A stretch of 5,235 nucleotides of DNA from Desulfobacteraceae bacterium (GTDB lineage Bacteria; Desulfobacterota; Desulfobacteria; Desulfobacterales; Desulfobacteraceae): positions 1-5,235 of the forward strand of contig WFQS01000491.1 of assembly GCA_015486915.1 (NCBI GenBank), in the 5' to 3' direction. The notes under the pieces were generated by a model. That model had not been told where the DNA came from. It saw only the letters and a program-made list of their open reading frames with translations, and searched no databases. This document shows positions 134 through 5,158 of this stretch, in pieces. The position numbers were made by a program, and so were the translations under genes. Positions within the stretch are counted from its first letter, which is position 1, and each line of letters opens with the position of its first letter.

Positions 134-344
134 AAAATTTTCGATCCTAAGGTTCTATACAAATCAGGTGTTGCACATAATACTTTCAGGCAGGATTGTA
201 CCGATAAAACAGTTAGCTTTAAAGCTCATAACTGCCACAAGGCCTGTCATATGGCTATCATAGGGCTTCAAAGTGTCAAAAAATCTTACAAAAAATTTAC
301 GAATTTTATAAGAAAGTCTTTGTAAAAAAACGTGTGACTTTCAT
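134..344. other. Non-coding intergenic stretch, no gene seen
   Basis: No convincing reading frame, tRNA or terminator is visible here. The stretch is AT-rich. CATAACTGCCACAA at 227-240 resembles the first hairpin box of the dispersed repeat described elsewhere in this window (TATAACTGCCATGAGG). On the minus strand, 270-293 reads as a degenerate version of its second box (AGATTTTTTGACA). These look like decayed relics of the repeat family and are weak calls. Confidence 0.4.
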
Positions 345-413
345 CTTTTGTCAGAATCTTTGATTCTTTTAGGCAAATCCGGGCCAATCCAGATCGGCCT
401 CACGGCCGTTATA
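345..413 (-). repeat. Dispersed structured repeat, minus-strand copy upstream of ssb
   Basis: Read on the minus strand from 413, this copy starts TATAACGGCCGTGAGGCC, continues with GATCTGGATT and a GGCCCGG segment, and ends with the hairpin AGAATCAAAGATTCT followed by GACAAA. The last 21 bases (347-367) are the exact reverse complement of 3330-3350 in the plus-strand copy downstream of the flavoenzyme gene. The GATCTGGATT segment also matches the array unit at 3946-4059. The copy ends 11 bp before the inverted repeat in the ssb promoter region. It could be a mobile palindrome or part of the upstream regulatory region. Confidence 0.7.
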
Positions 414-1938: not shown

Positions 1939-3279
1939 ATGAAATTTCTGATTATCGGCGGTGATGCAGCGGGAATGAGTGCTGCAAGCAGGGCAAAGAG
2001 AAAAAAACCTGATATGGATGTAACCGTTCTTGAAAAAACACAGGATGTATCCTACAGCGCCTGCGGAATGCCTTATAATATAGCAGATCCGGACAGGGAT
2101 ATGGAAAAACTTGTTGTAAGAAAAGCAGAAGTTTTTATTGAAAAAAACAGAATAAATCTTTTAACAGGCCATAAAGCCTGTAAAATAGATCCGGAAAAAA
2201 AAATTGTTACAGGCTTTGATTCCCTGAATAAAAATTTTTCTTTCCCCTATGACAAGCTTCTCATTGCAACGGGTGCATCTCCCATGTTACCGGATCTTCC
2301 CGGGTTTGACCTTCCTGAGGTCATGACTTTAAAGAGCCTGGAACAGGGCAAAAAAATAAAATCGTTTATCAGGGGAAAAAATATAAAAAAAGCCGTTATC
2401 GTGGGTATGGGATATATCGGCCTTGAAATGTGCGAGGCACTTACGAAAAGATCTGTAATGGTTGACATGGTCAAACCCCGGTCTGTGTTTCTCCCATGGA
2501 TGACACCTGATCTTGCAGATGTAATAAAAGAAGAACTGAAAATTAATAATATAAATATATATCCGGGGCACGAAATAAAGAAAATTGAATCAAAAGCACA
2601 GGGTGTATCCGTTGTATGCGACGATTTTTCCCTTGATGCAGATCTTGTACTTGTAGCATCTGGAGTTAAGCCCGAAAGTGGTATTGCAGTGGATGCAGGT
2701 CTTGAAACAGGAATATCAGAAGCCATTTCAGTTGACAACACACTTTTAACTTCTGACAAAAATATCTATGCAGCAGGGGACTGTGCAGACGCAATTCACG
2801 TTGTAACAAATAAAAAATGCTGGATTCCCCTTGCATTAAGGGCCAATAGAGCCGGCTGGGCCGTTGCCGATAATGTATGCGGACTTGATACAAAACTTAA
2901 AGGGGTTGCAGGCACAGCAGTATTTAAAGTGTTTTCCCTTGAAGTCGCAAGAACCGGGCTTTCCATTAAAGAAGCAGTGAATGCCGGATTTGATCCTGTG
3001 GAAATTTCCATAAAAACAAGGTCAAAGGCACATGGACAGCCGGGATCGGCGATAATTCATGTATCCATGACAGGGGATAAAAAAACAGGACGTCTTATCG
3101 GAGTCCAGATGGTTGGAAAAGAAGGCGTTGCACATCGAATCAATGCTGCATCCGTTGCCCTTCATACGGGAATGACCGTTGAAGATTTTTCGCAGACTGA
3201 CCTTGCCTACGCTCCGCCCTTTGGACCTGTATGGGACCCGCTGCTTACAGCAGCCAATCAGCTTATAAAAAAACTATAA
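1939..3279 (+). CDS. CoA-disulfide reductase / NADH oxidase-type FAD-dependent oxidoreductase
   Basis: The 446-residue product is a full-length member of the single-cysteine pyridine nucleotide-disulfide reductases (CoA-disulfide reductase, NADH oxidase/peroxidase, NAD(P)H polysulfide reductase). The order is: N-terminal FAD motif GGDAAG (7-12) with E32 ending the second strand; redox Cys42 in SYSACGMPY (38-46); ATGASP (110-115); NAD(P)H-binding GMGYIG (156-161) with E163; second FAD motif IYAAGDCAD (276-284); and a C-terminal dimerisation domain ending in DLAYAPPFGPVWDP (421-434). Y424 may match the catalytic tyrosine of CoA-disulfide reductases. There is no C-terminal rhodanese domain. These enzymes use NAD(P)H to reduce CoA disulfide, per- or polysulfides, or oxygen; the sequence alone does not settle which. 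AAGGAG (1928-1933) lies 5 bp before ATG. The gene is probably the last of the ssb operon. Confidence 0.93.
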   Translation: MKFLIIGGDAAGMSAASRAKRKKPDMDVTVLEKTQDVSYSACGMPYNIADPDRDMEKLVVRKAEVFIEKNRINLLTGHKACKIDPEKKIVTGFDSLNKNFSFPYDKLLIATGASPMLPDLPGFDLPEVMTLKSLEQGKKIKSFIRGKNIKKAVIVGMGYIGLEMCEALTKRSVMVDMVKPRSVFLPWMTPDLADVIKEELKINNINIYPGHEIKKIESKAQGVSVVCDDFSLDADLVLVASGVKPESGIAVDAGLETGISEAISVDNTLLTSDKNIYAAGDCADAIHVVTNKKCWIPLALRANRAGWAVADNVCGLDTKLKGVAGTAVFKVFSLEVARTGLSIKEAVNAGFDPVEISIKTRSKAHGQPGSAIIHVSMTGDKKTGRLIGVQMVGKEGVAHRINAASVALHTGMTVEDFSQTDLAYAPPFGPVWDPLLTAANQLIKKL

Positions 3280-3284
3280 TTTTT

Positions 3285-3410
3285 TATAACTGCCATGAGG
3301 CAGATCTGGTGACTCTCAGACTGCCTCTAAGAATCAAAGATTCTGACAAATATAGGGTCGAAGACGCGGAGCCAACTCTTATTCTTAAAGGAACTTAGCA
3401 GGAGTTTTTA
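3285..3410 (+). repeat. Dispersed structured repeat, full unit after the flavoenzyme gene
   Basis: This unit starts 5 bp after the stop codon. It has a first hairpin, CTGCC-ATGA-GGCAG (3290-3303), the palindrome CAGATCTG, and a second hairpin AGAATC-AAA-GATTCT (3330-3344) followed by GACAAATATAGG. A less conserved part ends in AGGAGTTT (3400-3407). Its first 72 bases (3285-3356) match 4193-4264 at 70 of 72 positions by direct reading. The next unit begins at 3411, 126 bp later. The hairpins could act as processing or stability elements for the operon's 3' end, but neither is followed by a clear U-tract. Confidence 0.75.
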
Positions 3411-3440
3411 TATAACGGCCATGAGGCCGTTATATAAAAA
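3405..3440. repeat. Perfect 16-bp inverted repeat between convergent genes
   Basis: The left arm TTTTTATATAACGGCC (3405-3420) and the right arm (3425-3440) are exact reverse complements around the loop ATGA. This is the GGCC version of the first hairpin of the dispersed repeat. It lies between the convergent flavoenzyme and thioredoxin genes, where a shared terminator would be expected. Its polarity is reversed, however: the T-run is on the 5' side and the A-run on the 3' side on both strands, so it lacks the U-tract after the stem. On the minus strand, a nearby short palindrome (TAAGAT and ATCTTA, 3444-3456) is followed by a T-run and could serve as a weak thioredoxin terminator. Confidence 0.75.
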
Positions 3441-3484
3441 CGATAAGATTATCTTAACAGAACCGCAATCTTAACTCGAAATAC

Positions 3485-3802: not shown

Positions 3803-3835
3803 TTACAAACTCCTGAAATTCAAGTTAAAATCTCA

Positions 3836-4320
3836 TATAACTGCCATGAGGCAGATCTGAACAGCATTACAACGCCTCAAAAAATCATAGATTTTGACGA
3901 ACATAAAAAGAGCATCAGTTGCTTTGTCAAAAATGAGCTCTTCCTTATAAAACAGCCCTGAAGCCGATCTGGATTCAGGCCCGGGTCTACCAGTAAAATC
4001 AAAATTCTGACATAAAATGGGGTCAAAGGCGAGAAAACCAGCAGCATCTTAATATTACGTTTTTTACATAATAAATCTGCATGGCCTAAAACATGGAACC
4101 AGCGTCCTGCCACGAAATAGAAAATTTTGACAAAAATGGAGTCTAAGAAACGAAACAAAATCTTCAAATATTGAATTATGAAAGGAGTTTAATATAACTG
4201 CCATGAGGCAGATCTGGTGACTCTCATACTGCCTCTAAGAATCATAGATTCTGACAAATATAGGAACTCTTACTCCGAAAGGGATTTTACAGGAGTTTCA
4301 TATAAAACCGCCATGGCCAT
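3836..4320 (+). repeat. Degenerate tandem array of structured repeat units, no gene
   Basis: About five units of the dispersed repeat follow each other head to tail, starting near 3836, 3946, 4067, 4193 and 4301, so the period is about 108-126 bp. Typical parts are a first hairpin box (TATAACTGCCATGAGGCAG in the best units, decayed to ATAATAAATCTGCATGGCC near 4067), a second box with the pattern AATCAnAGATTCTGAC (at 3882, 3997, 4117 and 4232, with changes), a GG(G/A)GTC segment, and AGGAGTTT before the next unit (4183-4190 and 4291-4298). The unit at 4193-4264 is nearly identical to 3285-3356; that at 3946 matches the minus-strand copy upstream of ssb. A minus-strand frame through 3877-4167 follows the repeats and has no recognisable product. 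The array may be an accumulation of mobile palindromes or a source of structured RNA. Confidence 0.7.
3875..3952 (+). repeat. Left copy of a 78-bp inverted pair flanking the ferritin-like gene
   Basis: Read on the plus strand, these 78 bases align without gaps to the reverse complement of 5081-5158, with 69 identical positions by direct comparison. The pair shares the second hairpin box (AAATCATAGATTTTGACG here), the ACATAAAAAGAG segment, ATCAGTT and AATGAGCTCTT. This left copy forms most of the first unit of the tandem array. Confidence 0.8.
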
Positions 4321-5080: not shown

Positions 5081-5158
5081 TTTTATAAAAAAGAGCTCAT
5101 TTTTTATAAAGTAACTGATACTCTTTTCATGTTCGTCAAAATCTCTGATTTTTTGATG
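5081..5158 (-). repeat. Right copy of the 78-bp inverted pair, in the ferritin leader
   Basis: This is the minus-strand counterpart of 3875-3952, with 69 of 78 positions identical. It contains the AAATCAGAGATTTTGACG hairpin box and AATGAGCTCTT. It lies between the candidate promoter and the ribosome binding site of the ferritin-like gene, so it would form part of the transcript leader. The leading TATAAC/GGCC hairpin of the full repeat unit is not present on its upstream side. Confidence 0.8.

Follow-up and report, generated by a model that had tools for sequence, protein, structure and literature searches.

Genes and repeat units of the window

The DNA analysed here, referred to as the window, is the whole stretch of 5,235 nt. 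Its genes are ssb, a DUF1638 gene, and genes for a FAD/NAD oxidoreductase, a thioredoxin and a rubrerythrin-like protein. The FAD/NAD oxidoreductase is 73% identical to proteins of Desulfobacula MAGs, and the best organism-named match of the DUF1638 protein is 'Candidatus Magnetomoraceae bacterium gMMP-1' (81%); the host therefore probably belongs to the Desulfobacterales. Between ssb and the DUF1638 gene, at 1083-1199, there is a 38-codon frame starting MKTLVVYSSKTGNTKK, read from the sequence as a truncated flavodoxin-like start.

Sequence comparison of the window with itself revealed a 77-nt direct-repeat family, D1, at 3280-3356, 3831-3907 and 4188-4264, with a 61% copy at 222-298, and an inverted repeat, I1, in which 3877-3952 and 5081-5156 are 89% complementary. 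The central feature is an array whose units start at 3836, 3951, 4072, 4193 and 4306, in steps of 115, 121, 121 and 113 nt; outside it the window holds three further copies and a doubtful one. Two kinds of model were used to delimit them: R1, a covariance model of 98 positions built from 29 units, including 306-413, 3836-3950 and 4193-4305, and subtype HMMs, whose training sets include 306-413, 3285-3408, 3836-3950 and 4193-4305. The features are as follows.

227..329, plus strand: possible very old unit, doubtful, overlapping the opposite-strand unit 306-413; R1 E 0.011, 61% to the reference copy of D1.
306..413, minus strand: complete unit of the D subtype (3' hairpin GAAAGTC..GACTTTC) with the AATC/GATT module, upstream of ssb; first noticed as inverted repeats I2, I3 and I5; R1 E 1.7e-13, HMM E 2.4e-29, both trained partly on this unit.
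3285..3415, plus strand: complete B-subtype unit with the AATC/GATT module and an extra GGGTCGAAGACGCGGAGCCA segment, starting 5 nt past the stop codon of the FAD/NAD oxidoreductase gene; R1 E 3.3e-9 (absent from R1 training), HMM E 1.5e-24 (trained partly on it).
3404..3441: perfect palindrome (inverted repeat I11, 100% complementary, 4 nt apart) with 17-bp arms GTTTTTATATAACGGCC and GGCCGTTATATAAAAAC and loop ATGA, made up of the 3' end of unit 3285..3415 and a bare first hairpin.
3836..3950, plus strand: array unit 1, A subtype (3' hairpin GAGC..GCTC); R1 E 1.5e-13, HMM E 3.3e-28, both trained partly on this unit.
3951..4071, plus strand: array unit 2, degenerate, with a C/D-like 5' half (AACAGCCCTGAAGCCGATCTGGATTC); subtype HMM E 4.1e-6 over 3943-3992 (not in training), R1 E 0.89.
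4072..4192, plus strand: array unit 3, probable relic, recognised mainly by AAAATTTTGACA, a B-type 3' end AAAGGAGTTTAATATAA (both read from the sequence) and its abutment; nhmmer E 0.2 for 4102-4144.
4193..4305, plus strand: array unit 4, B subtype, complete; R1 E 5.6e-15, HMM E 6.6e-28, both trained partly on this unit.
4306..4320, plus strand: truncated start of a next unit (AACCGCCATGGCC), abutting the TATAA of unit 4; read from the sequence.
5083..5156, minus strand: 5'-truncated A-subtype unit, inverted relative to the array and 89% complementary to 3877-3952 (I1); HMM E 6.6e-11 over 5081-5139 (not in training), R1 E 0.012.

The R1 matches at 306-413, 3836-3950 and 4193-4305 arise partly by construction, since these units belong to its training set, and the only independent HMM matches in the window are those at 3943-3992 and 5081-5139, because the other four lie in the training sets. 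The initial annotation of this DNA had described a gene-free tandem array of five head-to-tail double-hairpin units. The repeats, the gene-free stretch and the approximate spacing were all recovered; the array itself is more decayed than was claimed. By R1, HMM and nhmmer it contains two clear units, one moderate unit and one relic, followed by the truncated start at 4306-4320, and it cannot be counted as five full units because 3951-4071 reaches only E 0.89 with R1 and 4072-4192 is a weak HMM match at E 0.2.

A second dispersed repeat occupies positions 1-148, with inverted ends AAGTTGAAC...GTTCAACTT and arms TTCCGGCCCATGTAC/GTAGATGGGCCGGAA. One copy in the Desulfobacteraceae genome G090 is 89% identical to the window, and it matches many other contigs of G090 at about 86-92% over about 115 nt.

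Relatives of the units

The family was reached first by a short core pattern and next by R1. An HMM of the five units gave a best E of 0.84 against 69 close Desulfobacula loci, and BLAST with one unit matched none of 14 genomes. The core pattern GCCNTGARGCNGATCTG, taken from the window units, matched exactly at 182 places in G090 (2.9 Mb), at none when the pattern was reversed, and once each in four of the other 85 genomes of the family. A stricter pattern run over 389 genomes of the order matched 178 times in G090, eight times in G185 and once each in three others. With the subtype HMMs at E up to 1e-3, 218 copies of six subtypes were found in 120 G090 contigs (998,665 bases), and six in the window; copy densities in G090 are biased upward because the contigs were partly chosen for holding a match, and the genes of this genome are rough ORFs.

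R1 at E up to 1e-3 matched 50 of 86 genomes assigned to Desulfobacteraceae from their locus titles, many of them with at least 48 copies or near that, all counts being lower bounds; a deeper search of three genomes gave at least 142, 145 and 100 matches. Under strict filters, 25 of 192 genomes drawn over the class matched R1 and 167 gave nothing; 23 of the 25 are on the list of family genomes and two (G133 and G141) lie outside it. On viral contigs, 61 stretches had a single match each, which we took as chance. The initial annotation had proposed searching relatives with a covariance model and had named a lack of further copies among the outcomes that together would leave only chance similarity; further genomic copies were found.

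The window gave no match at E up to 1 to any of 4227 Rfam models, and when 25 loci from other genomes were scanned, the Rfam gathering scores were passed by rRNA, tRNA and RNase P alone, the rest being weak. The family is thus set apart from Rfam by search. A candidate RNA, Desulfotalea-1, is tabulated with no Rfam accession (PMC2864571). No description of such repeats in this bacterial group was found in the open-licence literature. We conclude that the family is a real and widespread one of short non-autonomous mobile repeats, undescribed as far as we searched.

Structure of the unit

The unit of this large family is about 93 nt long and non-coding. It starts with WATAAC, which is followed by a first hairpin NGCC-ATGA-GGCN, a variable middle, usually CACAACRAA, a last hairpin GAAA...TTTC and the end WTATAA; palindromes thus lie near the ends of a unit that has no terminal inverted repeats. 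The GCC/GGC hairpin with an ATGA loop, as seen in the initial annotation, proved to be a general feature of the family. The same cannot be said of the AATC/GATT hairpin followed by TGAC: by regular expression it is a local module of four of the six window copies and 36 of the 218 G090 copies, and most relatives have CACAAC at its position. The supposed AGGAGTTT box is no separate element; it is the 3' arm of the last hairpin (GAAACTC...GAGTTTC) in one subtype.

An alignment of 125 columns, A2, was made from 29 units of G090, G185, G053 and the window. Its two hairpins (columns 7-18 and 81-119) have 93.1% and 88.7% of cells paired. Over both hairpins there are 60 double-changed cells against 24.0 in 500 shuffles, none of which reached 60, and the covariation score is 0.308 against 0.087 in shuffles and at most 0.123 in slid-arm controls. 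Two cruder measures differed less from the shuffles: pairs with any double change numbered 6 against 5.1 (86 of 500 shuffles reach 6), and further pair types 18 against 15.2 (30 of 500 reach 18). The compensatory changes whose absence the initial annotation would have counted against its proposal are therefore present in the stems. In 95 units of G090 the first hairpin is closed by G-C in 26, by T-A in 25 and by C-G in 23, and this N-GCC/GGC-N stem covaries, with 74 of 95 Watson-Crick against 30 in shuffles. An alternative first stem, GGC-N/N-GCCTC, does not covary at that base in G090 (21 of 60 against 17.6 in shuffles, p 0.16).

In a sample of 20 units, taken singly from 19 genomes and from the window, the middle arm can also pair with a downstream arm ending right before CAAC. 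The possible pairings include TGGGC..GCCCA, TGGCC..GGCCA, TGAGGC..GCCTCA and TGTGGC..GCCGCA, so that the second stem also appears to vary in step across genomes. Of the 18 units of the 20 that could be parsed, 16 fold singly as the second stem, as judged by eye and without a control. The middle arm can, as predicted from the sequence, pair with the arm before or after it, which would be a switch-like arrangement.

Several variants of the unit were noted. Units of the F subtype in G090 (L137, L144, L148, L108 and L114) have a large internal insert and a total length of about 250 nt; the unit is therefore able to carry passenger sequence. In locus L281 of G090 a unit beginning at base 79 has a 5' half of the E subtype and a 3' half of the B subtype, a sign of recombination between subtypes. 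In G185 (L168 and L169) a first-hairpin version CCGGC-ATG-GCCGG exists alongside the usual one.

Mobility of the units

Two empty sites were identified. The first lies between a universal-stress-protein gene and the next gene, where G026 reads CACAATAA|CAATTC and in G034 a 95-nt stretch of unit sits precisely at the joint of AATAA and CAATTC. Another unit occupies this left junction in G040, where the right flank is different (AATAATTCC), and G039, G025 and one G061 copy of the site are without a unit. Two separate insertions probably account for the different units at this junction, which would then show target specificity. The second was led to by the joined-flank frame of L288: G090 carries a degenerate unit where an IS transposase gene ends (3'), and in G061 and G079 the two flanks are contiguous without it. 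The other long frames in that scan of joined flanks (25 of 126 blocks listed) were judged to be chance fusions of neighbouring genes, and a comparison of window 3278-3408 with L008 was rejected as an empty site.

Young copies were found as well. Fifteen copies in G040 (L407-L421, those of 93 nt among the 18 matches listed) are 95.7-100% identical pairwise, with a mean of 98.3%, six being identical, and lie in unrelated flanks. Copies of the approximately 250-nt F subtype are 97-100% identical over 83-181 comparable nt in several G090 contigs. In G038, of three letter-identical copies (those with the shared top score), two stand directly behind two different older units and one in unique DNA. 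The units move, as is evident from the precise empty sites, the near-identical young copies and the copies behind older units, and mobility is demonstrated here in the copies of relatives, not in the window's own. The self-propagating element of the initial annotation is accordingly borne out as regards movement; nothing points to the units' being self-driven, for they code for nothing and an enzyme-carrying relative was not found.

Insertion target and ends of the units

The left target AATAA is already present in the G026 empty site, that is, there is a short fixed target at the 5' flank. The copies show that insertion takes place directly 3' of WATAA, and that the unit runs from C-NGCC to TTTCWT-ATAA with some additional A. 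On the right, the 15 fresh G040 copies finish in TTTCWTATAA and an A-run of variable length (1-7), TATAA being directly followed by A in all 15. The 3' boundary varies, because the right end in G034 is TTTCATAAAAAA, not TATAA; the A-run after that unit is absent from the G026 empty site. The 15 young copies have no shared inverted ends, and their 5' flanks differ up to WATAAC, save a pyrimidine four bases before it in 15 of 15 (T in 12, C in 3), which is perhaps part of the target. A T-run on the left and an A-run on the right were considered as inverted ends and rejected, as the two are uncorrelated in G090 (r -0.08, n 57) and G040 has no inverted ends.

A target duplication was sought by comparing left and right sequences of 4-6 bases at 13 offsets. 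Beyond the ATAA overlap, no match of 5 or 6 bases was clear of the shuffles. Only the ATAA position stands out: among 47 copies with both ends free, left and right ATAA go together in 28, where shuffles give 23.8 (p 0.004, the smallest value in 39 comparisons), and in 58 of 102 against 52.4 (p 0.019), with p 0.048 in a fixed-offset test. In G040, where ATAA is nearly constant, nothing stands out in the duplication test. A 4-base duplication of ATAA is possible; either it or the joint decay of old copies would give the association. We favour the terminal ATAA as part of the unit rather than as such a duplication.

Growth of the arrays

In G090, 46 of 50 abutting pairs are head-to-tail (p 4e-10), and 34 of the 46 head-to-tail joints lie between different subtypes, the other 12 being homotypic. 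One of the 15 fresh G040 copies stands directly behind another unit, and the G038 copies show that identical young units come right after the 3' ends of older units of other kinds and point the same way as these. Since every copy ends in (W)ATAA, which is the target, and young copies stand behind different older units, arrays grow head-to-tail. The window array, consisting of A, C/D-like, relic and B units and a truncated start, is kindred to the G090 arrays, older and decayed, and we infer that it was built by successive insertions followed by decay.

We therefore consider it probable that the array consists of copies of a mobile element of about 93 nt, non-coding and strongly folded, moved by an enzyme supplied elsewhere in the cell. 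A copy would land directly 3' of WATAA and leave a new (W)ATAA at its own 3' end, where the next copy could land, and the window array would have grown in this way copy by copy and later decayed. The moving form may be a folded strand recognised through its hairpins, with the enzyme presumably cutting at a specific sequence. The simplest status for such units is that of a genomic parasite tolerated between genes. Some points speak against this explanation: the mobilising enzyme, or a relative carrying it, was looked for and not found; mobility is seen in relatives and not in the window's own copies; the left and right ATAA are associated, as duplication or joint decay would give; the 3' boundary varies, as G034 shows; and the conservation of the stems could also reflect selection for a host function.

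Candidate enzymes and alternative explanations

The genomes were searched for two kinds of enzyme. Y1_Tnp genes occur in 69 of 86 genomes, namely 45 of 50 carriers of the family and 24 of 36 non-carriers (p 0.012, uncorrected for genome size). The carriers with no Y1 match are G015, G022, G027, G033 and G062, several of these genomes being fragmented and maybe incomplete. Reverse transcriptases (RVT_1) occur in 58 of 86 genomes; 39 of the 50 carriers have one, as do 19 of the 36 non-carriers (p 0.02). Among the 11 carriers where none was matched are G015 and G089, each with 48 copies or more (incompleteness is possible). Neither enzyme is found in every carrier. In G063, whose first bases encode dnaN and gyrB by reading of the translation, 60 of 95 copies among the matches listed (142 matched) fall on one strand class by replication arm (p 0.013), in a single post-hoc test with the terminus assumed at mid-genome and a noisy GC skew; this is a weak hint of a single-strand process. 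The same genome has 16 reverse-transcriptase matches of near-equal score within about 73 kb (C1, about 2.36-2.43 Mb) among the matches listed and 30 in all, possibly group II introns.

The most probable alternative is a form of the explanation above that names the enzyme: the units would be non-autonomous derivatives of IS200/IS605-type elements, moved as single strands by a Y1 (HUH) transposase in trans, as has been supposed for the PATEs of haloarchaea. Insertion 3' of a short fixed target, the want of a duplication of five or more bases, hairpins close to both ends, a right end resembling the target, the higher frequency of Y1 genes in carriers and the mild strand bias in G063 all fit it. 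Set against these are the five carriers in which Y1 was not matched, one of them being G015 (at least 48 copies in a genome of 1.9 Mb that may be incomplete), and the two Y1 genes of G090, in whose flanks, the only two loci read, no unit-like ends were seen by eye. Moreover, the IS608 layout has a guide sequence, and a first hairpin that begins one base from the left end leaves no room for an IS608-like one. We regard a Y1 transposase as a serious candidate, though on balance not the likely one. One of the Y1 genes of G090 (contig C227, L163 and L296) is RAYT-like with a 286-aa frame; a partial unit lies about 1 kb upstream (L296:7845-7908), and the flanks of the gene are unlike unit ends by eye.

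An ordinary cut-and-paste transposase with target ATAA would make a 4-base ATAA duplication into which later copies land. Most copies do have ATAA at both ends, as do 14 of the 15 fresh G040 copies, and the association of left and right ATAA exceeds the shuffles. The 15 fresh copies, however, share no inverted ends, and one of them, L421, has AAAA on the left and ATAA on the right; the G026 empty site reads ATAA|CAATTC but the right side in G034 is AAAAAA|CAATTC. Furthermore, ATAA is retained on the right by 8 of the 15 G090 copies that have none near the left end, and among 37 copies without ATAA at the fixed left position only two have an identical right 4-mer (both AAAA), although just 19 of the 37 are informative, because the other 18 read TAAA, i.e. 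ATAA shifted by an extra A. Such a transposase is improbable.

A lower probability still is given to the integron-like scheme, a site-specific recombination of a folded single strand in which circular units are added singly at a WATAA end. It would account for heterotypic arrays of controlled orientation and for two different units at one left junction; integron core sites contain G|TT, and AATAA|C, read on the other strand as G|TTATT, shares it. The remainder of the attC core is unmatched by eye, the two AAC motifs of the unit face the same way, and there are many unrelated insertion sites.

Equally unlikely is that the units are conserved cis-acting or small RNAs, such as switches or attenuators, multiplied for gene regulation. 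The strong covariation of the stems and the middle arm that pairs with the preceding or the following arm would suit an RNA, as would the stems of B-type units, which have 34 G.T against 3 A.C pairs (65 against 16 for four subtypes together), although the fold itself favours G.T. On the other hand, the first-hairpin closing pair has 3 G.T against 6 A.C, and the last stems of 48 A-type copies 22 against 36; as the counts conflict, the written strand is not clearly selected as RNA. Of 133 copies in G090, 32 have both neighbouring genes co-oriented with the unit and 29 both opposite, 19 lie in divergent and 7 in convergent gaps, 20 in rough ORFs and 26 at contig edges. The orientation of the neighbouring genes gives no sign of a regulatory role, even if divergent gaps are more numerous than convergent ones. 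The repeated RNA module of the initial annotation thus has the kept stem pairing in its favour, but gene orientation and the G.T and A.C counts give it no consistent backing.

Retroposition, by reverse transcription of a short-tailed (A) unit transcript at WATAA sites, seems slightly less plausible again. The A-run of variable length after the 3' end of fresh copies and the G034 A-run missing from the empty site of its relative G026 are what it would leave; the 11 of 50 carriers with no RVT_1 match count against it, and so does the A-run in G090, which peaks at a length of 8 (16 of 99 free 3' ends; two have a length of 9) and therefore looks encoded, not untemplated. Plain tandem duplication through slippage is very improbable as the main origin of the window array in spite of its regular spacing, since neighbours are of different subtypes both in the window (A, C/D-like, relic, B) and at 34 of 46 joints in G090, where the 12 homotypic pairs could have arisen by slippage.

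Comparison with known repeats

We return to the reading of the units as short elements moved by an enzyme from elsewhere in the cell. A short, enzyme-dependent mobile repeat is an already known kind of element, to which the family would belong. By analogy, and as far as the accessible parts of the cited papers describe them, the nearest kinds are the SMRs and PATEs of Haloquadratum (PMC3119063) and the BOX elements (PMC3049150). The SMRs of Haloquadratum walsbyi, of about 110 bp and in dozens of copies, strongly prefer other mobile elements as target, have terminal inverted repeats, make no target duplication and are given there as mobilised in a way not known; the SMR-A group inserts within palindromes of other elements (PMC3119063). 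Like SMRs, the present units are short, coding-free and mobile, and their mobiliser was not found; unlike SMRs, the young units have no shared inverted ends and land behind WATAA, including the ends of other units. PATEs share their ends with IS605-type transposons (PMC3119063). The units resemble them in having no terminal inverted repeats, near-terminal palindromes, a short 5' target and no coding capacity, and differ in that no IS605-type parent was found for the family, ends having been read at two G090 Y1 genes only.

The BOX element of Streptococcus pneumoniae is a single boxA...boxC element with a repeated internal boxB (PMC3049150). Both are modular, folded and interspersed and form tandem arrays of modules; here, unlike in BOX, whole units with their own ends are stacked. 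As with the REP/BIME sequences accompanied by RAYT (PMC2817692), there are often more than 100 copies per genome, palindromic and extragenic, whereas BIMEs alternate in orientation and 46 of 50 joints here are head-to-tail, with a unit of about 93 nt and at least two hairpins. The MITE-like tandem arrays of Thiohalocapsa PB-PSB1 are likewise arrays of short folded repeats; those repeats, unlike the present ones, match terminal inverted repeats of IS elements in the same genome (PMC10907252). The terminal inverted repeats that define MITEs are absent from the units, as judged from the 15 young G040 copies. In Desulfobacterium autotrophicum HRM2, 2357 exact repeats of at least 50 bp were counted (422 per Mbp), among which there may be members of the family; the accessible part of that paper describes no such element (PMC2702500).

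Implications

A more particular version of the preferred explanation is put forward tentatively, as being less probable than its opposite: the units would be a new class of minimal mobile element, a folded strand some 93 nt long whose middle arm could pair two ways. It would be inserted base-precisely behind WATAA by an enzyme other than a Y1 transposase or a reverse transcriptase, and would form cassette-like arrays because each unit has its own 3' landing site. What would be new in this family is the combination of a fixed target left at each copy's own end, no inverted ends, and a mobiliser that was looked for and not found.

The repeats recur between genes in many genomes of an ecologically major group of sulfate reducers. 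Genomes of a single contig offer young subfamilies, recent insertions and precisely matched empty sites, so the movement of short repeats that carry no enzyme is directly testable in this group. For annotators, the finding would be a caution against taking such arrays for riboswitches or CRISPR-like loci.
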